A stretch of DNA of 64,000 nucleotides from contig JAQBOZ010000011.1 in NCBI GenBank assembly GCA_028287785.1, positions 62,001-126,000 on the forward strand. The letters run 5' to 3'. The notes beneath the pieces were generated by a model that did not search any database, was not told the DNA's origin, and saw only the letters and a list, made by a program, of their open reading frames with translations. Source of the stretch: Chlorobiota bacterium (GTDB taxonomy: Bacteria; Bacteroidota; Ignavibacteria; OLB7). The translations under genes were made by a program, and so were the position numbers. Of the stretch, positions 45,912 to 63,974 are shown in pieces. Numbering within the stretch: position 1 is the stretch's first letter; each line of letters starts with the position of its first letter.

Positions 45912-45959
45912 CGGATGAACAAGGCTATCCCGGTGTGTCCGGATAGCCTTGTTCATCCG
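45912..45959. terminator. Strong hairpin
   Basis: CGGATGAACAAGGCTATCC-CGGTGTGTCC-GGATAGCCTTGTTCATCCG, perfect 19-bp arms. Confidence 0.75.
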
Positions 45960-45996: not shown

Positions 45997-46069
45997 GGGC
46001 CCTTAGCTCAATGGTTAGAGCAGTGGACTCATAATCCATTGGTTGGGGGTTCAAGTCCCTCAGGGCCCA
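45997..46069 (+). tRNA. tRNA-Ile2 (anticodon CAU)
   Basis: GGGCCCT acceptor pairs with AGGGCCC; D arm GCTC...GAGC; anticodon arm GTGGA-CTCATAA-TCCAT; T arm GGGGG-TTCAAGT-CCCTC. The TTAGCTCA...ACTCATAATC...GGTTCAAGTC pattern resembles bacterial ileX. CCA not encoded. Confidence 0.93.
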
Positions 46070-46073
46070 CCCG

Positions 46074-46107
46074 AAACCCCGATTTCGATAAGATTTCGGG
46101 GTTTTTT
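46074..46107 (+). terminator. Rho-independent terminator after tRNA
   Basis: AAACCCCGA ... TCGGGGTTT followed by T-rich tract. Confidence 0.8.
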
Positions 46108-46279: not shown

Positions 46280-47293
46280 ATGATAGTTACCACGCTCTCC
46301 CATGATCCAGCATCGCCGCGCTACCGCGTTGAGTATGCGAACGGACAGATTGATGATCAGGCAGATCAACTCCCTGACAAGTTCTTCTCGGTCGGAACCC
46401 GCAAGTTCGAACTCACTGATCCGGATTACTCCCCGGAATACCGAGCACTCACCAGACATCTCCATCTTGTTCTCAACAGCCTCCAGGCCTTCGAGTCGCT
46501 CATGGACTCTGATGAGTTCCAATCGCTCGATCTCCCCATCACCCCTCGACGAGATTTCGCACTCTCTGTTCTCAAACGTATCCGTCCTGCCCTCAAACAT
46601 TATGCTCCCTGCAATGACAGCAACGGCCGCGATATCGCCAGAGCCTGGATCAATGACTACTGCTCGAATGCCCTGGCCGACTACTGGACAGAGTTCCATT
46701 CCTGCGATCTGCCGCAGTTCGATTTCGACGGCATTCGTCGCTATCTTGAATCGCTCGACAGCATCGAGGATCGCCACGCATTCATGAACCAGATTCTTTG
46801 CGAGATGGCCCAGCCGGTTGCCTGCGCCTTGATTGATCGCAAGCAGGAGCGCCATAACCGCTTCTCGGGACACGACTGGCAGATCGTCCTCTTTCATCGG
46901 CACGCAATCTCCCTTGACGAAGAGACCCATCTTCAGGACATCCAGCATGATCTGCGATTGCAGCGGGATATGAATGTTCAGCGTGCGATGAGGGGAGAGG
47001 AGGCTGGCACCGTTGGGGCCAGCGCTCACTCTTCCATAGCCACAGCACCTCAGCTTATTGAATGGATGGCACAGCAGGTTGATCTGGTGTTTATCATCGA
47101 TGCCTTGAAGGAAGCCGGATACTGCCGGGCAACCCATGCGATAATCGTCGATCACTTCGATTATCGGAGCCAGTCGAAGGACAAAGCCAAGACCTACCGC
47201 GATATGCGGAAGAAGCTTCGTGAGGGAGCGTCCTATGCCGATCGTGCTCGGCTCGATCATCTCATTCGAATCTTGACCGAAGGATTGCGGTAG
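46280..47293 (+). CDS. RteC-like protein (putative mobile-element regulator)
   Basis: C-terminal layout LIEWMAQQVDLVFIIDALKEAGYC...YRDMRKKLREGASYADRARLDHLIRIL resembles the RteC C-terminus; similarity judged by eye. Confidence 0.45.
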   Translation: MIVTTLSHDPASPRYRVEYANGQIDDQADQLPDKFFSVGTRKFELTDPDYSPEYRALTRHLHLVLNSLQAFESLMDSDEFQSLDLPITPRRDFALSVLKRIRPALKHYAPCNDSNGRDIARAWINDYCSNALADYWTEFHSCDLPQFDFDGIRRYLESLDSIEDRHAFMNQILCEMAQPVACALIDRKQERHNRFSGHDWQIVLFHRHAISLDEETHLQDIQHDLRLQRDMNVQRAMRGEEAGTVGASAHSSIATAPQLIEWMAQQVDLVFIIDALKEAGYCRATHAIIVDHFDYRSQSKDKAKTYRDMRKKLREGASYADRARLDHLIRILTEGLR

Positions 47294-47418: not shown

Positions 47419-47712
47419 ATGGACACGATTGGCTTTCTCTCCCTCTCGATCGATGAACTTCGCGATCTGATCTATCGCACCGTTGGTGATGCCCTTGACG
47501 CCAGCAAGAAGAATTCGCCACCACCGGCCGAACCTGCCGGCAATGAACTCCTCACACGCAAGGAAGCGGCCGAGATGCTGCACGTCTCCGTTCTCACGCT
47601 CAGCAATTGGGAACGTCGGAATATCCTCCATCCGCGCCGTATCTCGCGGCGGGTTCTCTACATGAAAGCTGATCTCCTTGCAGCGCTTGCGCGGGCGGAC
47701 CGGCAGAGATAA
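47419..47712 (+). CDS. Helix-turn-helix (excisionase/MerR-type) protein
   Basis: NELLTRKEAAEMLHVSVLTLSNWERRNILHPRRISRRVLYMKADLLAAL. Confidence 0.85.
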   Translation: MDTIGFLSLSIDELRDLIYRTVGDALDASKKNSPPPAEPAGNELLTRKEAAEMLHVSVLTLSNWERRNILHPRRISRRVLYMKADLLAALARADRQR

Positions 47713-47974: not shown

Positions 47975-48910
47975 ATGACCACTCCATCTCCTCCACTATC
48001 GAGAGAATCCCTTCAGACTCCTGACGGTGATCTCAACGTCTTTGATATGGCAAGTCGGAAACCTTTTGTGCCGTTGCGCGGCGAGGTGGTGATGTATGAA
48101 TACCTGCCTTGGCACGAGTCCGATCCCACGATGTATCCAACCATTCTCGATCTCATGGTTCGTATAACGCTCACAACTGTGACACCTCCGTACTGGGATC
48201 GGAACTCGGAACCCAGGAAGGGAAGAGTGCTGTTTGTATCTCCCTTCGCTCAGCTTGTCCGTGTGGTCGAGCAGCATCTCAAGGCAGCGGGTGCGGATTG
48301 TAGCCGCGTTTGGGAGTACCCATGCAACGACCGTTCAGGGAATGCCATGTCTGTGATGCGGTTGCCCAATCATGCCGTGCGGCTCCGCGACGACATCATT
48401 GAAACTGGGGCAGACCTTGTCGTGATTGATCCCCTGAACGGAATGCTCGCCGAGGATGCCGGCAGATTGCAACGCGAGACGATCGAGCGAGTACGTTCAG
48501 CCCTCAGACCCATTGCCACCGAGACCCATGCCGCGATCGTGGTTGGATTCGTTCGTACAGACTTGGACCCTCCCGATAGCCCCGATGACCACGCAATCCG
48601 GTCGTCAACCGGTGGGGCGACGACACAATCATCCTCGGCCGCTATCTACCGCTCGGCAGAGAAGTCCGGTCCGGTAGACGGCAGTAGCGTGGTGAGCACC
48701 GCTGCTCATGGGGACGTGCCGAAGGCCATAGAATTCCTGCAACGGACGTTGGCGCGTGGACCGTGTTCGAGTCGAGAGGTGGAATCCCTTGCGTCTCAAC
48801 ATGGCCTGAAGCAGCGAACGTTGCGAACAGCTCGTGAGAATCTTGGTATTCGCGTGTGGAAGAAGCAAGGCGCGAGTGGGCAATGGATGTGGGAGCTTCC
48901 CGTCAGATGA
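47975..48910 (+). CDS. RepA-like RecA-fold protein lacking a recognisable Walker A
   Basis: Collinear with RepA-type AAA proteins: PFVPLRGEVV..., GRVLFVSPFAQLVRVVEQHLKAAGADCSRVWEY, TGADLVVIDPLNGML (Walker B-like), C-terminal winged helix KAIEFLQRTLARGPCSSREVESLASQHGLKQRTLRTARENLGIRVWKKQGASGQWMWELP; no GxxGxGK[ST]. Confidence 0.65.
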   Translation: MTTPSPPLSRESLQTPDGDLNVFDMASRKPFVPLRGEVVMYEYLPWHESDPTMYPTILDLMVRITLTTVTPPYWDRNSEPRKGRVLFVSPFAQLVRVVEQHLKAAGADCSRVWEYPCNDRSGNAMSVMRLPNHAVRLRDDIIETGADLVVIDPLNGMLAEDAGRLQRETIERVRSALRPIATETHAAIVVGFVRTDLDPPDSPDDHAIRSSTGGATTQSSSAAIYRSAEKSGPVDGSSVVSTAAHGDVPKAIEFLQRTLARGPCSSREVESLASQHGLKQRTLRTARENLGIRVWKKQGASGQWMWELPVR

Positions 48911-50761: not shown

Positions 50762-53700
50762 ATGTCTAAAATCAACCAGATCCAGTCCGCACTGAAGGCA
50801 ATCGACCAAGCTCGGTTTCAACAACTCTGCGATCACTACCTTCACAAGCAAGGGTACGTCAATATTAATTCGATTGGTTTGGTTATCGGGAAGGATAAGA
50901 CAAAGACTGGGACTCCTGACACTTATATATCTCTTACTAGTGGTAAATATCTCTTTGCTGAATATACAACTCAGCAAGAGGGTGTCGTATCGAAGTTCGA
51001 AGATGACCTTGCTAAATGCTTCGATTCAACGAAGACAGGCTTGTCGGATAGCGAAATCGAAAAAGTCTTTCTCTGTTACAACGGACAGATGGATGTTCGT
51101 GGTGATCAAAGACTAAAGGCACTTGGAGCCAAACACGGCTGCATTGTTGAGATAATTGGAATTGGTCGTCTGTCGCACGATTTGAAAGACAAATATCCCG
51201 ATCTAGCGAAGGAACATTTAAACGTTGATGTTGATTCCGGTCAAATCCTCGATGAGGAACGGTTCATTGCGATGTACCAGAAGCACCCCAACGCCACGCG
51301 AATCGATACTGTATTCCTGGGGCGCGAATCGGATCTTGAGCTTGCGCATGAGTTCTTGCTGAGTAACAATGTGTTGCTCATCTCCGGGCGTCCGGGCGTC
51401 GGCAAAACACGATTCGCGTTGGAATGTTGTCGCCGATTTGCCGGATCGCATAGTGAATATCGTGCCTCTTACGTGTTCAACCGTTCCGCCGACGTTTACG
51501 ACGATGTCCGAACCTATTTCAGCCAACCTGGCAAATACCTGATAATGATCGATGATGCGAACCGGCGGACGGGTCTTACATATTTCCTGGAATTACTTCA
51601 AGAGCAAAGTAATGATCGCGAGTTCAAGATCGTTTGCACTGTCCGTGACTACGCAGCGGAGAAGATCAGAAGTGATATAGGAAAATATGCTCGGCCGGAC
51701 GAGCTTGAAATCAACCCGTTCAGCAACGACGAGATCAAGGAACTTGTCCGGGTATCCTATAACATCCAGAATGGTGATTATCTCCGCCGGATCGAGCGAC
51801 TCGCCCAGGGAAACCCACGGCTTGCCATGATGGCTGCAAAAGTTGCGACTGAACATAATTCACTTGGCAGTATCGACGACGTTTCGGCCCTCTACGATGA
51901 ATATTTCAAATCCATTCGTGGTGATATGGAAGGCGACGACTTCCCGGGTCTTCTGCGGGCGGCTGCTGCGGTAACTTTTTTTCGTGGTATTGACCGCGAT
52001 AACGATGAACAGAAACATCTTATTCTCGATGCCTTTGGTCTAGACAACGATTCTTTCTGGAGTTATCTCGAACGGCTACATGAGTTGGAAATAGTGGATT
52101 TATGGGAAGATCATTCCATCGCTCGAATAGCAGATCAGGTATTGGCGACGTATCTGTTCTATCGGGCCGTGTTCGTTGATAAGGTTATTGATCTAACATT
52201 CGTTCTCACGAAGTTATTCCCGCGCTTTCGATCCCGTCTGATGGATGCCGTTAGTCCGGTATACTCAGCATTTGATGTGACACTCATTGAGAAAGTATTG
52301 AAACCAAGCATTCTAAATGTCTGGGGCCAATTCACAGATCAGAAGAGATGGGATGAACTGTGGGAACTGATGGAGGCATTCTGGTGGGTGAATGAGAATC
52401 AGACTTTGATAATAGTCCGTGACTCTATCCGCTCAATGGAAAGTGAGTTGATTGATGTAGCAAGCATCGAATGGAAGACGAACTCCTTTGTGCCTCGATC
52501 AACTCCACTTAGTGTGCTTTCGCAGTTTCGAGGGTCCGTCTACCAACAGAACGCAGCTAAACTTATTCTCGACTATGCAGCCAAGCAACCAAGTGCATAT
52601 CCCTATGTCATTCATATTTTGACAGACGATTACGGTTTTCGCACCAATTCACATCGGTATGGATATGCAACTGAAAAGATGGTTCTCGATGTCATATGGG
52701 CGGAGTGGGAATCAACAAAGCGGTTTGAGAGCGCATGGCTCTACGTCGCCGTGGTAAATGAATTCATCAAAACTCATCATATGGCAACTGAACCGCTAAA
52801 TCGCAGGGCGCTCACGATAATGCAGTTCGATCTCTTACCCACTGAAGAGATGCAGGCAATGCGGCGGATGATGCTGAAGCAATTGTTGGAATTGTACGAG
52901 CGTCCGGAGTTGGTAGGCTCCGTGACTGCACTGCTCCACCAATACCCTCGTATGGGATGTGACATTAGTGGTAAGGGTATCATAGGATGGGACATGGAAA
53001 TACTATTGCCGTTTGTCCGAAGTCATCTTGATCCTGCTAAGTATAGCGATTGCCGATATGTGCAGAGTTTATTGGCACATTGCCGGCGCAACGATGTTGA
53101 GTATGACCAAGATTTGAAAACGATATTCACAAATCAGACCTACGAACTGAGCATTCTCCTGACGGATGATTATGAGGAATTGCAAGAGTACGGACATGAC
53201 CACTATCGAGAGCGGAAACGGGATGCTATCCGCCAGCAGTTTAGCCTGTATACGGCTCATGAGTATCGCGTTCTTCTGCAGCAATGTCAGGAGGTCCTTG
53301 CCGCGACGAGCCGGCAATATCAAATCCTTGAGGGGATAGGCCAGATTTTACTCGATCTGTTGAATCGTGACCCCACTCTGTTCGAAATTGTGATGGCGAA
53401 GTATCTGGATGACGGCGACAGTCTCACTATTCATCCAGATCAATTTGTGGGTGCGATGATGACTGCGTTCGGTGCCAAACGCACTCATGATGTTGTTGAA
53501 TATGCTACCAGTAATGTTAAGGATAAATGGCTGTTCTCCTATTTTAGCTTGTTACCTGAGACATCCATTACAGCATCCGAGGCAGAACAGCTAAAGAATC
53601 TCTACGCGGTGGCTGACGTACAGGTCATGCCCTATCGCCTCGCTTACCTTGAGCGATTTAGTAGGGCATCTCCAACCATCGCAAATGATATTGTAACCAC

Positions 53701-54505
53701 TTTGCTCCGGCGATCAAAAGAGGACAAGCGGTACATCTTTTGCTTCTCAAAGCTATTTTTACTCGCTGGTGAAAATCAGGAGGCAATGCTCCTACGTACT
53801 CTCGATATCGACAACATCGAGACGGCATATATTGAGGTCGCGAGTATCGAACGGCACCTCGACTATCAGTGTCGAGCGATGTCTCTGATCCTCGACCGCG
53901 ATCCGGCTTTTCTCAATAAGTACATTCACGAACGTCATCAAGTTCGTAAAGATCATTACTGGCCCGAGGAGCGTGATTACAGTCTGTTATGGGAGCGTGA
54001 TGATTATCGTGCAATAATAAAATCGGCTTTGGATGAGGCATTTGGCCTCGATAAGAAAGATCGATTTTTTCTGAGCGATACGCGAGATCGGCTTTTGACG
54101 GTTTCTCGATTGGGAAACGATGAACGTCGTAAACCATGTGAGAGAGTGATCTCGCTTCTCGAAGAAATCATCGAGGAGCACTACTCCAATCGGGAGTACA
54201 TGGAGTTCTTATCTGACGGTATTGCCCGCTTCGACGAAGACACACACAGGCGTTTGCTCGCATTCTTCCTTCTGCACAATAAGAACCCGGAGGACTTTCA
54301 AAAGTTGTGGCTGGAACCGAGCAGTGGATCGGCCTCTGGGAGTTGGGTTCCGGTGTACACCAGACAGAAGGAATTCCTTCAATCGTTGTTTTCGCTCGTG
54401 GCGGATATCGACTTGCTCGATCATCGTGCGTACTTGGAACACCGAATTGAGATACTGGAGCAGCAGATTGAACGGGAAAAGCGGAGCGACTTTTTAGAAG
54501 AATAG
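50762..54505 (+). CDS. Restriction-endonuclease-like + nSTAND3 NTPase protein (Avs-like putative antiphage defence)
   Basis: N-terminal PD-(D/E)xK-like GTPDTYISLTSGKYLFAEYTTQ; FLGRESDLELAHEFLLSNNVLLISGRPGVGKTRFALECCRRF (Walker A), YLIMIDDANR (Walker B), VCTVRDYA, EINPFSNDEIKELV, GNPRLAMMAAKVA; about 800 aa helical C-terminus. Confidence 0.85.
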   Translation: MSKINQIQSALKAIDQARFQQLCDHYLHKQGYVNINSIGLVIGKDKTKTGTPDTYISLTSGKYLFAEYTTQQEGVVSKFEDDLAKCFDSTKTGLSDSEIEKVFLCYNGQMDVRGDQRLKALGAKHGCIVEIIGIGRLSHDLKDKYPDLAKEHLNVDVDSGQILDEERFIAMYQKHPNATRIDTVFLGRESDLELAHEFLLSNNVLLISGRPGVGKTRFALECCRRFAGSHSEYRASYVFNRSADVYDDVRTYFSQPGKYLIMIDDANRRTGLTYFLELLQEQSNDREFKIVCTVRDYAAEKIRSDIGKYARPDELEINPFSNDEIKELVRVSYNIQNGDYLRRIERLAQGNPRLAMMAAKVATEHNSLGSIDDVSALYDEYFKSIRGDMEGDDFPGLLRAAAAVTFFRGIDRDNDEQKHLILDAFGLDNDSFWSYLERLHELEIVDLWEDHSIARIADQVLATYLFYRAVFVDKVIDLTFVLTKLFPRFRSRLMDAVSPVYSAFDVTLIEKVLKPSILNVWGQFTDQKRWDELWELMEAFWWVNENQTLIIVRDSIRSMESELIDVASIEWKTNSFVPRSTPLSVLSQFRGSVYQQNAAKLILDYAAKQPSAYPYVIHILTDDYGFRTNSHRYGYATEKMVLDVIWAEWESTKRFESAWLYVAVVNEFIKTHHMATEPLNRRALTIMQFDLLPTEEMQAMRRMMLKQLLELYERPELVGSVTALLHQYPRMGCDISGKGIIGWDMEILLPFVRSHLDPAKYSDCRYVQSLLAHCRRNDVEYDQDLKTIFTNQTYELSILLTDDYEELQEYGHDHYRERKRDAIRQQFSLYTAHEYRVLLQQCQEVLAATSRQYQILEGIGQILLDLLNRDPTLFEIVMAKYLDDGDSLTIHPDQFVGAMMTAFGAKRTHDVVEYATSNVKDKWLFSYFSLLPETSITASEAEQLKNLYAVADVQVMPYRLAYLERFSRASPTIANDIVTTLLRRSKEDKRYIFCFSKLFLLAGENQEAMLLRTLDIDNIETAYIEVASIERHLDYQCRAMSLILDRDPAFLNKYIHERHQVRKDHYWPEERDYSLLWERDDYRAIIKSALDEAFGLDKKDRFFLSDTRDRLLTVSRLGNDERRKPCERVISLLEEIIEEHYSNREYMEFLSDGIARFDEDTHRRLLAFFLLHNKNPEDFQKLWLEPSSGSASGSWVPVYTRQKEFLQSLFSLVADIDLLDHRAYLEHRIEILEQQIEREKRSDFLEE

Positions 54506-56299: not shown

Positions 56300-57187
56300 A
56301 TGACGCAATCCCGAATCCATCCTGTGAACACAAGCATCGATCATCTTCCAGAACACAAGCAGGAACAACTCCGTCGCGTGGTGGAAATTATCCGCGAGGA
56401 GACGGAGGTGGAGATGATCATCCTCTTCGGGAGCTATGCCGCCGGCACATGGGTGGAGGAGCCCGGTCCCGACCCGCGCACCTTCGAGTACCAGAGCGAT
56501 TTCGATATCTATGTGCTTGTGGAGGATAAGAAAGTCGCCCGCAAGGGATCGCTCTGGGCGCGTGTGGAAAACCGGCTTCGCCGTCAAGTCCCGACGCCGG
56601 TGGGATTGCTGGTTGATGCCATCGCCGCATTCGATAGCTACATTCGTGAGGGACGATACTTCTACACCGATATCCGAACGCTCGGGATTCTGCTGTACGA
56701 CTCGGAGAAGTTCGCGCTGGCAGAGCCGCGTGAGCTGAGCCCGGAGCAGCGTTTGGTATTGGCGACGGAGGATTTTGAATACTGGTTCGATAGCGCGAAT
56801 GGTTTTCTATTGAACACACAGTTTGCCATCGATCGTGCTGATTATATCAACGCGGTGTTCCAGCTTCATCAGGCAACCGAGCGGTTGTATTCCGCTCTTC
56901 TCCTGACCTTTACCAACTACAAGCCGAAACTCCACGATATCGAGAAGCTCGGTAATCTTGCGGCGGGACAGGCACCGGAGCTGGTTCCCGTCTTTCCAAT
57001 CGGGACTGAAGAGGAACGACGGTTATTCTCACTCCTTCGCCGGGCGTATATCGAGGCCCGGTATGATAAGAAGTACAGGATAGAGCGGCAGGAGCTGGAG
57101 TGGCTGCTGGAGCGGGTGATCGCGCTGAAAGGGATTGTGGAGGATGTCTGCCGGGCCAGAATCGCGAAGTACTCGGGAGTGCGTTGA
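56300..57187 (+). CDS. MNT nucleotidyltransferase-HEPN fusion protein
   Basis: MIILFGSYAAGTWV...SDFDIYVLVE (GSx..DxD nucleotidyltransferase motif) followed by HEPN-like AVFQLHQATERLYSALLLTF...RRAYIEARYDKKYRI. Confidence 0.8.
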   Translation: MTQSRIHPVNTSIDHLPEHKQEQLRRVVEIIREETEVEMIILFGSYAAGTWVEEPGPDPRTFEYQSDFDIYVLVEDKKVARKGSLWARVENRLRRQVPTPVGLLVDAIAAFDSYIREGRYFYTDIRTLGILLYDSEKFALAEPRELSPEQRLVLATEDFEYWFDSANGFLLNTQFAIDRADYINAVFQLHQATERLYSALLLTFTNYKPKLHDIEKLGNLAAGQAPELVPVFPIGTEEERRLFSLLRRAYIEARYDKKYRIERQELEWLLERVIALKGIVEDVCRARIAKYSGVR

Positions 57188-59164: not shown

Positions 59165-59662
59165 TTGCCACGGGGTGACACAATGGCAAAGAACCTAGCG
59201 CAGAAGCGCGATTGGCGCGAAGAGCGCCGCTTTCGAGCATGGGATCTGCATCAGCAGGGCTGGAAACAGATCGATATCACAACGGCACTTGGAGTTACCA
59301 CCGGAGCCGTCAGCCAGTGGCTGTCGCGTGCTTGTAGTGGCGGAGTCGATGATCTTCACAATCGCCCGAGGCGTGGTGCTCCACGCCGATTAACCGACGA
59401 GCAGCATCAACGTATTCCAGGCCTACTGGCACTCGGAGCCGAGCATTTTGGCTTTCAGGGCGATGTCTGGACGAGCCAGCGTATTGCCGAGGTGATTCAA
59501 AGGACTTTTCATGTCCGCTATCATCCGGCACACGTCCGGCGGCTGTTGCATGCGTTGGGCTTCTCGGTACAGAAGCCCAATGTCAAGGCCACGCAACGCG
59601 ATGAAGCGGCAATCGCCGCTTGGGTGCAGGACACGTTGCCAGCAATCAAAAAAAAGCGGTAG
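59165..59662 (+). CDS. IS630 transposase, N-terminal part (HTH)
   Basis: RAWDLHQQGWKQIDITTALGVTTGAVSQWLSRA; ends PAIKKKR* at the A8 run. Effective start may be MAKNLAQ at 59183. Confidence 0.88.
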   Translation: MPRGDTMAKNLAQKRDWREERRFRAWDLHQQGWKQIDITTALGVTTGAVSQWLSRACSGGVDDLHNRPRRGAPRRLTDEQHQRIPGLLALGAEHFGFQGDVWTSQRIAEVIQRTFHVRYHPAHVRRLLHALGFSVQKPNVKATQRDEAAIAAWVQDTLPAIKKKR

Positions 59663-60179
59663 ACGAACAGCGTATTCCGACGAATCGGGCTTCTATCTGC
59701 TCCCGGCAGTTGCTCGGACATGGGCACCGAGCGGTCAAACACCGGTTCTGCGCTCGAAATTGACCCGAGATCATCTGTCGGTCATCAGTGGCATCACTGC
59801 TGACGGCGAGTTGCTGATGCAGGTCTACGCGCATGCGATCAGTAGTACAGAATGCGTGCGATTCCTGAAGCACCTCGTCCGACATCTTGGGACAATCCTG
59901 GTCGTGTGGGACGGAGCGCCGATCCATCGATCAAAGGTTGTCAAAGAGTATTTGAGCACCGACGCTGAAGGTTTGGTGCATCTGGAACGATTACCGGCAT
60001 ATGCACCGGAGGTCAGTCCGGACGAGGGTGTCTGGCATTATTTGAAGAATGTCGAGTTGCGCAATATCTGCTGCGACAGCCTGCGAACGCTTCGCTATGA
60101 ATTACGCTGCGCAACAAAGCGTCTACGCCATAAATGCAATGTCTTACTTGGATGTTTGCGACAAATTGAGTCCGTTTAG
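59649..60179 (+). CDS. IS630 transposase, C-terminal part (DDE)
   Basis: KKSGRRTAYSDESGFYLLPAVARTWAPSGQTPVL...VVWDGAPIHRSKVVKEYL...LPAYAPEVSPDEGVWHYLKN; frame is +1 relative to the upstream ORF. Confidence 0.88.
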   Translation, partial: KKSGRRTAYSDESGFYLLPAVARTWAPSGQTPVLRSKLTRDHLSVISGITADGELLMQVYAHAISSTECVRFLKHLVRHLGTILVVWDGAPIHRSKVVKEYLSTDAEGLVHLERLPAYAPEVSPDEGVWHYLKNVELRNICCDSLRTLRYELRCATKRLRHKCNVLLGCLRQIESV

Positions 60180-60665: not shown

Positions 60666-63600
60666 ATGGCCGATATTCATGTGTTTGCCGACATAGATCA
60701 GATCAGGGGACAGGACGATAATAACCCGATGCAGACGATCGATGAGGCATATGGGCCGACTCGCACAAATGTGAATGACCGTTATCGTCTTACCAGTCGG
60801 TTCAAGTTCGACGATGAAGCAGTGGCGTATGCCATGTTCGATGGCATCGCGATTGTGCAGGATGTCCCCGATCCAAATTTTCCAGGCTTGGTCAATTTGG
60901 CGCTCTATAACATTGGAATTAGTCGCCGTTTTCCTAATCCGAAGGTTGTGATTTACCGCGGATTAGTTCGGGATGATTTCTTCCGAGATACCGGTATCGA
61001 ATCGAAGATGCAAATTGCGAATCGACCAGGTTTTAACTCTGATTTAATTGTCAATATGTGGCAACACTTTGACGATTGGAAAAACAAGATTTTACCCATT
61101 GGACAGACCACATCTCTCGTCGAGCCTCCCTATGATATGGTCGGTTATATGAATTATGACCCAAATGGACATGAACTTGATTCGGATGGGCGAGAGATCA
61201 AAAGGAAAGAATACGGAGATGACGATGACGTCATTGGATGGTTCCTGAGACACTCAACCGGACTAAATTATTATCCGTTTCCCATAAAAAAAGGTTGGAC
61301 AATCGGTCGATTTAAGCGCTATACTGAACTGCACCAAGTCGGAGGGGGAATCGATATACTTCTTCAGGAAGAAAGTCATGGGTTGACGTTCGGTGTAATG
61401 CGGAAGTTTCAGAATACTGTGGAATTTACACAGCCTTCGACGGGCGTTGCGGGAGCCGAGGATGTTGACAAAATGAGATCTCGTGAACGTGTGCTTGATT
61501 ACATCGACCCGGCAGCATTCTATAATCATTTTCGCGATTCCGGTGTAGACTATAAAGCTGAAACAATCATTGGGGATGCCGTCTATGATCGAATTGTCAG
61601 CAAATTTTATACAAAAAATCGCATTTATGTGGAAATACGGAATCAAAGTGACAATTCGCTGAATATGGGCCTGGATAACATGGACGAGACCACCATGACT
61701 GATCATTTTAAGATCGGATTCAATGGTGCTCCCGGATCGGAACTGCCCGCAAATTATTATGTGAATTTCTGGCCCATATATTATACGGAACTCAGCACGG
61801 CATCGGGCGATATGAATACGATGCAGATAGCGTTTCGCAAGAAGTATAATCCTGTTCCGGTTATCTACATGGATCAGGCGATGTCCGTAAAAGAAGTGGG
61901 GAGTGAGCGTTTTATTAGGGATTTTGCGGCGGAAAGTGCCATATGGTCAAACACCTTTCAATTCCTCACCCCCAATCTGCCGCGCCTTGTCAATGATCAT
62001 GGGGCAGGGGCGAAGACAGGTACGGCATGGATGACACGGATCTATCTGATACGAAAGAAGCTCCCTGCGATCCAACTACCCGCTCGCACCATTCCGTCCG
62101 ATAATTATGCGGATCTTATTTTTGGACCAGTAGTAAACCTGAGTTCATTCTATCCGGCAGGTAATAATAGCAAATGGATATTGGGCGGAGCAAAGCGATA
62201 TGTAAATGGAGATGTCGAATTTGGCGGTAAAGGAGACTTTATGGTGCTTACCGGAAAGTATATCGATCAATCGTCGATTGTATTTTTCGCGACACTGCTC
62301 GATAAGAACGGTCGTATTACTCCCATGCCTGTCGTTTCTACAAGGCCGATCCAAGCCGTCGATTACGGGCCGTTGTCGGGTCAGTTCTTCGAGGCGATTA
62401 AAAGCTGGTCTTCGCAGTTCGATAAATTTAAAAATTTTCCAATCCTCCCTATGGGAGGCACAAAGAAAGAACTTCCGACATATCAACGTGAATACGAGTA
62501 CTTCCCGGAATATGGTATGCTGACCTTACGTGTGTCACATTCGGAGTACGATGTCCATCTTCTTCCTGCGGTTGCATTGTTCGACCCATCTCTGCTTCCA
62601 ATATATTTCAGCCTGGATAGCTTTCAGCATGCCAAGGATCAGAACGGCAAGTACTTTCATCAGGCTCAGTTAATGCTCAGCGGCTTGAATAACTCCAGCG
62701 TTTATACGCGCGAGTTCCCCATGAATGGAAATGTTATCGTTCGATCAGTGGACCGCTTCAATTTTACCTCGGATAATTCGGTCGTTGGAGAGGGCTTGAT
62801 CGAGGCGACGACTGATCCCAAAGCTTACTTTGTTGCTAATAGTAGTGATAAGGCGAATCTGATAGCATTTGTTGAAGCGATTGAAGATACATATGCTGAT
62901 TGGGATTTGCGGCCGGAGGATACAGTGTCAAGGTTCAGGCAGGAATACTATGGAAGCAATTATCGTGCATCTGCTCAGGGGGCGACCAAAGAGCACATAA
63001 TGGCTATAGGAAAAGGTCTCTTGTTTCAAATATCTATTCCAGCGGATAATAATTTGGAAGCTGACGGTATTACGCCGCGAATTTTAATCAGGTGGCGAGC
63101 GAGGGTCGCTTCTCCAGATAAGGTAGATCTGGTGCGACGCTATGAGGATGCAATCGATCACTTGTGGGCTTTGGCTGATGAAAACAGCTTCCGTGATAAT
63201 CCAAGCCCTCTTGTCCAGGATCCTGAACACGCTGGCAGTCTTCCAAGATATAGATGGGATCTTGGGCATGCAACGTATGGCCTAATGGCGTTGATTAACA
63301 ATGGCCTGATCGATTATCCATATACAAAGGGATTTGGAATTGACAACAGCATCGATCTCGCCAGCTACGTCGGTGATCTCGGTGGGGTGCCAGCCGACTA
63401 TTTTGGACATATTGTCAATGGTGCGCCACCTTCTGGTCGGGCCGAATTTCCTGAAACTCCGGATCGGGATCGCTATTGGGAGATTGAAGCTCCAGATAAT
63501 GATTTGATCGGAGATGCAGAGTCGTTTGGCTGGTGGAGAGCATGGAAATCAGTGCGGGATGATGCGGCGGCGGCGCATGACACCTTTAAATTCAGTGATG

Positions 63601-63974
63601 TCTTAAAGCATTACTATAACCCCAATGTCGTCACCAATGCACATTACACAAAACGCTGGCATATCTTCTGTGAAGACAACGGTTATATCGATGCCACTGG
63701 CAATTGGCTTATTACTGGCCCGACACATCCTGTGTATCAGCAACTTGTGGGGCGGGTACGAAGGTCGGGCGTGCTTCTGGCATGTGTTGCGTATGAGACT
63801 AGAGCAACGGGAATTTACCTGCTCAACTCTAAAAAAATTCTGGATTCTCCCGCGGAGAAATATCTGAGGCCTCCAGTAGAGAAGTATAGTGCCGTGCTGA
63901 CCGATACTGAAATTGTATATTATACTATCGATAGATGGTTGAACAAGGTACAGGGATGGCTGGCGGCTGAATGA
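60666..63974 (+). CDS. 1102-aa protein of unknown family
   Basis: Long uninterrupted ORF, AGGA upstream of ATG, no signal peptide, no family recognised. Confidence 0.8.
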   Translation: MADIHVFADIDQIRGQDDNNPMQTIDEAYGPTRTNVNDRYRLTSRFKFDDEAVAYAMFDGIAIVQDVPDPNFPGLVNLALYNIGISRRFPNPKVVIYRGLVRDDFFRDTGIESKMQIANRPGFNSDLIVNMWQHFDDWKNKILPIGQTTSLVEPPYDMVGYMNYDPNGHELDSDGREIKRKEYGDDDDVIGWFLRHSTGLNYYPFPIKKGWTIGRFKRYTELHQVGGGIDILLQEESHGLTFGVMRKFQNTVEFTQPSTGVAGAEDVDKMRSRERVLDYIDPAAFYNHFRDSGVDYKAETIIGDAVYDRIVSKFYTKNRIYVEIRNQSDNSLNMGLDNMDETTMTDHFKIGFNGAPGSELPANYYVNFWPIYYTELSTASGDMNTMQIAFRKKYNPVPVIYMDQAMSVKEVGSERFIRDFAAESAIWSNTFQFLTPNLPRLVNDHGAGAKTGTAWMTRIYLIRKKLPAIQLPARTIPSDNYADLIFGPVVNLSSFYPAGNNSKWILGGAKRYVNGDVEFGGKGDFMVLTGKYIDQSSIVFFATLLDKNGRITPMPVVSTRPIQAVDYGPLSGQFFEAIKSWSSQFDKFKNFPILPMGGTKKELPTYQREYEYFPEYGMLTLRVSHSEYDVHLLPAVALFDPSLLPIYFSLDSFQHAKDQNGKYFHQAQLMLSGLNNSSVYTREFPMNGNVIVRSVDRFNFTSDNSVVGEGLIEATTDPKAYFVANSSDKANLIAFVEAIEDTYADWDLRPEDTVSRFRQEYYGSNYRASAQGATKEHIMAIGKGLLFQISIPADNNLEADGITPRILIRWRARVASPDKVDLVRRYEDAIDHLWALADENSFRDNPSPLVQDPEHAGSLPRYRWDLGHATYGLMALINNGLIDYPYTKGFGIDNSIDLASYVGDLGGVPADYFGHIVNGAPPSGRAEFPETPDRDRYWEIEAPDNDLIGDAESFGWWRAWKSVRDDAAAAHDTFKFSDVLKHYYNPNVVTNAHYTKRWHIFCEDNGYIDATGNWLITGPTHPVYQQLVGRVRRSGVLLACVAYETRATGIYLLNSKKILDSPAEKYLRPPVEKYSAVLTDTEIVYYTIDRWLNKVQGWLAAE

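Follow-up and report, generated by a model that had tools for sequence, protein, structure and literature searches.

The STAND gene and its island

The gene described here lies in a 64,000-nucleotide stretch of Chlorobiota bacterium DNA (hereafter the window), in which a check of open reading frames shows it as an intact forward-strand frame of 1247 codons plus a stop, with a GGAAGAG a few bases 5′ of its ATG. Its start codon matches a 'MSK..I' start kept in relatives across a 34-member alignment, and the frame, its motifs and its match to the nSTAND3 family, taken together, are not due to chance. The parts of the gene and the features of its integration site are collected in Table 1.

Table 1. 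Gene parts and integration-site features in the window
Feature	Position	Strand	Basis
Whole gene, 1247-aa STAND protein	50762–54505	+	Full-length colinear relatives
N-terminal domain, residues 1–178, PD-(D/E)xK-like fold, presumed effector	50762–51295	+	AlphaFold, Foldseek, conservation
P52-D53, 'PD' of nuclease-like block	50915–50920	+	Invariant, 34 sequences
E67-Y68-T69, 'E-x-T' in strand 3	50960–50968	+	E67 in 20/34 relatives
K78 to D82, helix after strand 3, candidate displaced catalytic residues	50993–51007	+	Both invariant
nSTAND3 NTPase core, residues 192–312: Walker A, Walker B, TVRDYA	51335–51697	+	Pfam; Avs4 NTPase homology
Helical/winged-helix-like segment after NTPase, residues ~313–480	51698–52201	+	AlphaFold model
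Mostly helical C-terminal region, residues ~481–1247, presumed sensor	52202–54502	+	Model; fastest-evolving part
tRNA-Met, 3′ end = left attachment site of the island	45997–46071	+	
Direct repeat, left copy	46050–46106	+	54/57 identical to L105:1975–2031, ~40 kb on, past the window end

GC content is about 61% in the backbone and drops to 46–55% at the tRNA-Met, with 46–52% for the island. The left repeat consists of the tRNA-Met 3′ end and the bases after it, and the right repeat adjoins a tyrosine recombinase gene with a Phage_int_SAM_5 domain (L105:567–1784, minus strand). Because of the GC drop, the 54/57 repeat and the adjoining recombinase, we regard the gene as cargo of a ~40-kb island at tRNA-Met, bounded by att repeats and equipped with an integrase, in keeping with the mobile cargo status proposed in the initial annotation. 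The same annotation placed the gene alone between IS remnants, which holds for its 3′ side, where Mutator-type and DDE_3-type transposase remnants follow, but not for its 5′ side, where HTH and AAA genes of the element itself run up to the tRNA-Met. In an empty-site comparison with a congener and family genomes only the tRNA-Met itself matched and the flanks were not syntenic; a search of the island against plasmids gave no near match.

The left end of the island holds a 337-aa gene without a Pfam family (46280–47293), an HTH_17 gene at 47419 and an AAA_25 gene at 47975, all of which look like maintenance genes. Elsewhere in the island, a 295-aa protein (56300–57184, plus strand) fuses a nucleotidyltransferase (Polbeta/NTP_transf_2) to a HEPN domain and resembles a fused HEPN-MNT toxin-antitoxin pair, whilst a very large 1102-aa protein (60666–63974) and, near it, one of 2861 aa (L104:1855–10440, extended ~65855–74440) are both without any Pfam family. 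A DDE_3 transposase at 59165–60179 is broken into overlapping frames, and a transposase-like pair of overlapping frames lies just past the window (L104:472–1271). Just upstream of the tRNA-Met, a perfect 19-bp inverted repeat with a 10-bp loop (45912–45959) is possibly the terminator of the preceding gene.

An Avs-like layout outside Avs1–5

Residues 192–312 match PF20720 (nSTAND3) with an E-value of 9.5e-8 and 32.3 bits, above the Pfam gathering cut-off of 27.2, so the clade named in the initial annotation stands. The motifs it had listed are also in place: Walker A (GRPGVGKT, residues 209–216) and Walker B (LIMIDDAN, 260–267) are intact, the VRDYA sensor-like motif reads TVRDYA (293–298), and G212, G214, K215, D264, D265, N267, T293 and R295 are invariant in the 34 sequences. 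AlphaFold2 was run with alignments of the window protein and fetched homologues, the two halves being modelled separately (pLDDT 86 for residues 1–178, 82 for residues 172–1247). The protein beyond the NTPase is mainly helical in the model, about 770 residues of it making up the C-terminal region, and the tripartite arrangement of effector, STAND NTPase and long C-terminus is present in one protein, as judged from the Pfam nSTAND3 match and the AlphaFold models.

Structural comparison of the C-part (172–1247) gave EcAvs4 as best PDB match (E 5.5e-8, prob 1.00) and Avs3 next (E 3.4e-7); EfAvs5 and NLRP2 rank further down among AAA+ proteins. Sequence search of the PDB returned no relatives. TM-scores to Avs4 are low for the C-part (0.18–0.19) and for the N-domain (0.48–0.52), so the fold evidence is good, not decisive. 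A profile comparison, for which genuine Avs4 sequences and remoter homologues were drawn from plasmids, shows the NTPase core to share homology with its Avs4 equivalent (hhalign prob 97, E 6.4e-11, columns 184–344); no profile homology of the N-domain or C-terminus to the Avs4 counterparts was detected. Comparison with Avs1–Avs5 profiles, the check proposed in the initial annotation, gave no Avs match: no NCBIfam Avs model hit the protein at E ≤ 1, NF041815 (Avs4, cut-off 1500 bits) matched neither the protein nor anything else in its genome, and the Avs models of PADLOC-DB 2.0.0 did not match, the weak PDC-S73 and mad8 matches there falling mainly at the NTPase. The relatives likewise had no Avs match in PADLOC. 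As the Avs4 model does not match and detectable homology is confined to the NTPase core, we call the protein Avs-like and not a member of Avs1–5; on present evidence it probably works like an Avs but lies outside these types. The Avs-like layout of the initial annotation is upheld.

With Avs4 (8dgf, NF041815) the protein shares a central STAND NTPase, a long helical C-terminus, a single-gene form and, by prediction, a nuclease-fold N-domain, yet Avs4 is about 1587 aa long against 1247 aa here, and where Avs4 proteins have WQ(S/A)KFY, a Q-x-K, the present family has E/M-x-T/G. Effector swapping is a hallmark of Avs. It is described for STAND defence proteins (PMC9122126), whereas in the present family the N-domain and C-region stay together: both were found in the same genomes, one decayed copy excepted, and no swapping of effectors within the family was seen in the 399 genomes searched. 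Avs5 (SIR2-nSTAND3-repeats) is likewise reported to carry nSTAND3, PF20720 (PMC12931631), but its effector is a Sir2 NADase and not a nuclease fold. The STAND proteins of P4 satellite hotspots, which bear Mrr_cat or BpuSI_N nuclease domains (PMC9122126), are alike in that a single gene, carried by a mobile element, encodes nuclease, STAND and C-terminal repeat parts; by their description they are set apart, as their nucleases belong to named Pfam families and the N-domain here matches none above cut-off.

A predicted nuclease-type fold with a non-canonical site

The N-domain of the window protein has no Pfam family above cut-off and is nuclease-type by predicted fold. The best PDB match of its model in Foldseek is EcAvs4 (8dgf, E 2.9e-3, prob 1.00), with the restriction enzymes EcoT38I and MspJI close behind and VRR_NUC and EndoMS lower. 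The elements of the model follow the PD-(D/E)xK order, which agrees with the core fold: P52-D53 precede strand 2, E67-x-T69 end strand 3, and K78 and D82 sit in the next helix. Both blocks noted earlier, GTPDTY and YLFAEYTTQ, are present, and the motif indeed reads E-x-T rather than E-x-K. Across the 34 sequences G39, G50, P52, D53, K78 and D82 are invariant, whereas position 67 holds Glu in 20, Met in 11 and Ala, Val or Asn in one sequence each, and position 69 is T in 20, G in eight and S in six, with Lys in none. The conserved D, (D/E)xK triad is therefore not found (D53 34/34, E67 20/34, no Lys at 69), and the canonical PD-(D/E)xK site is not conserved, as the Glu is lost in 14/34 and Lys never stands at 69. 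In short, the PD-(D/E)xK-like block of the initial annotation is upheld as a fold with an invariant D53 but not as a canonical active site; its guess of a displaced lysine is consistent with the invariant K78. The sequences without E67 all sit in a single region of the tree that is mostly Bacillota and in which two members keep E, and the pattern needs three changes on the tree. A literature search on displaced-lysine nucleases found nothing useful.

Profile searches with the N-domain led, by way of a weak match (L140), to a second STAND family of ~1190–1245 aa (L153–L157, L140), for which we found no curated name. It occurs in cyanobacteria, proteobacteria, Campylobacterota and haloarchaea, with copies on plasmids of Pseudanabaena, Aliarcobacter, Acinetobacter, Sphingomonas and Haloquadratum. 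Profile comparison relates the two families over N-domain, NTPase and the next segment (prob 98, E 2.2e-13, 428 columns), extending through residue ~448, and over the N-domain alone (prob 96, E 4e-9), whilst the C-terminal sensor of the second family is not aligned with that of the present one. Both share a P-x-D / x-x-T-T / invariant Lys pattern; in the second family neither the PD aspartate nor the Lys opposite K78 in the alignment varies, and the Glu position is E, H or A. Two further weak N-domain matches came up: L142 was dropped, having no matching coding relative, and in L143 a comparable block lies in a 320-aa protein without a Pfam family.

The invariance of D53, K78 and D82 across phyla, together with the PD and helix-Lys set common to two families, suggests retained chemistry, and from these alignments catalysis would use D53 with K78, perhaps D82, with E67 dispensable. 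It is also possible that the protein is the same defence receptor but that its N-domain is a degenerate PD-(D/E)xK fold and no catalytic nuclease, binding nucleic acid or a partner, or doing other chemistry, the phage then being stopped by oligomerisation alone or through a recruited factor. Such a loss would fit the Glu missing from a Bacillota lineage while the remainder of the N-domain is still conserved, the E, H or A at this position in the second family and the Lys that is never at the canonical place; it is harder to square with three invariant residues across phyla and with a PD and helix Lys that recur in the second family. A wider proposal, which we advance tentatively, would make this N-domain a distinct class of STAND effector, found in at least two STAND families and triggered by phages in bacteria and archaea, in which a PD-(D/E)xK fold with a dispensable strand-3 Glu relies on the PD Asp and a helix Lys-x3-Asp for catalysis or other phosphodiester chemistry.

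Distribution, proposed function and neighbours

Full-length relatives (about 40, with lengths clustering at 1190–1290 aa) occur in Pseudomonadota, Campylobacterota, Bacteroidota, Ignavibacteriota, Bacillota, Leptospira and Methanobrevibacter, with a patchy distribution and partly on plasmids or islands. In plasmids, tblastn recovered relatives that are colinear and 22–25% identical over 90–96% of the length, from Bacillus cereus and from 13 Leptospira plasmids. Scanned with a profile, 85,488 species genomes gave 33 loci with N-domain and NTPase, most of them full length, including Nitrosospira, Sulfuricurvum, Paenibacillus, Flavobacterium, Staphylococcus, Streptococcus and Methanobrevibacter; a single-sequence scan of the genome contigs found nothing, the relatives there coming from the profile scan. 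Three more lie on IMG/VR contigs, and none was found among 50,697 phage records. Amongst 399 genomes of the same phylum, beyond the window's own, copies that are long, full-length or split occur in five and a remnant in one; the congener and three family genomes examined lack the gene. In the tree the window protein clusters with sequences from Nitrosomonadaceae and Campylobacterota (SH-aLRT 96 and 99), apart from the Ignavibacteriota and Bacteroidota members. Broken copies were found in two of the seven phylum genomes with a C-region match, one split (G075) and one decayed with eight internal stops (G156), which fits rapid gain and loss. The family is widespread and so far unnamed in PADLOC and NCBIfam; beyond the initial annotation, what emerges from alignments and models is this widespread unnamed family, its Avs-like design and a predicted nuclease-fold effector with a non-canonical site.

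Mean pairwise identity is 34–37% in the N-domain and NTPase against 17–21% in the C-terminus, and a divergent C-terminus beside a conserved effector and NTPase is, at the sequence level, the pattern expected where the sensor is under selection. The protein probably defends against phages, and we consider it likely that it is a single-gene, NLR-like phage-defence receptor, driven by nSTAND3, whose N-terminal PD-(D/E)xK-fold domains attack nucleic acid. In such a receptor the fast-evolving helical C-terminus would bind a phage product, allowing the NTPase to take nucleotide and oligomerise; oligomerisation would cluster the N-terminal domains, which would then attack nucleic acid of the phage and/or the host and so stop the infection, with D53, K78 and D82 presumably replacing the classical D-(D/E)xK triad. 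All steps past the domain assignments, namely phage sensing, oligomerisation and nucleic-acid cleavage, we infer. If correct, this would be a conserved family of single-gene NLR-like phage sensors in Bacteria and Archaea, without a name in PADLOC or NCBIfam, and a natural experiment in a nuclease-fold effector without its textbook catalytic Glu, open to direct comparison of the E67 with the M67 clade; the architecture conserved across phyla would make the sensed phage protein findable by standard co-expression screens. Defence against plasmids or competing mobile elements, for which carrier islands and plasmids would keep the gene, seems unlikely: several relatives are on plasmids, three are on IMG/VR contigs and the window copy itself is on an integrative element, but Avs3 and Avs4, which stand nearest in structure, were solved in complex with phage terminase and portal proteins (PDB titles).

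The genes around relatives are in keeping with a defence role. The 115 genes flanking relatives matched 349 PADLOC families at 1e-10, against 65 for 115 control genes, figures that count families and not genes, the controls being arbitrary stretches of other same-phylum genomes that differ from those of the relatives. One control stretch itself carried a Wadjet-like cluster, and some neighbour matches (AriA, PbeA, mads) may be generic ATPases; for these reasons, with the family counts and the unlike control genomes, the enrichment is supportive and not strict. Several members each were matched by PADLOC models for type I and III restriction, Gabija (GajA) and specificity subunits, and the Pfam families among the 115 neighbours include ResIII (5), HSDR_N (3), SWI2_SNF2 (3), Methylase_S (2) and OLD-like TOPRIM (2). 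On the B. cereus plasmid the relative's neighbours include a restriction endonuclease, AAA ATPases and a McrC-family gene.

STAND NTPases include MalT-type regulators. A role as regulator of host transcription or development, with no part in phage defence, nevertheless appears very improbable for the present protein. The initial annotation had named a C-terminus matching a housekeeping STAND regulator as evidence against its reading, and a maltose-system regulator structure (8bob) is among the fold matches, with Avs4 and then Avs3 ranking best. Against a regulator stand the carriage on plasmids and islands, the absence from close relatives, the horizontal spread between phyla and into an archaeon, the split and decayed copies, the defence-gene neighbours and the nuclease-like N-terminus.

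On plasmid pLiSL2 of Leptospira interrogans the next gene after the relative encodes 1264 aa and has no Pfam family (L022:15881–19675); its product has the N-terminus GGHQDAPDGGVD and is possibly another nuclease-type defence protein.
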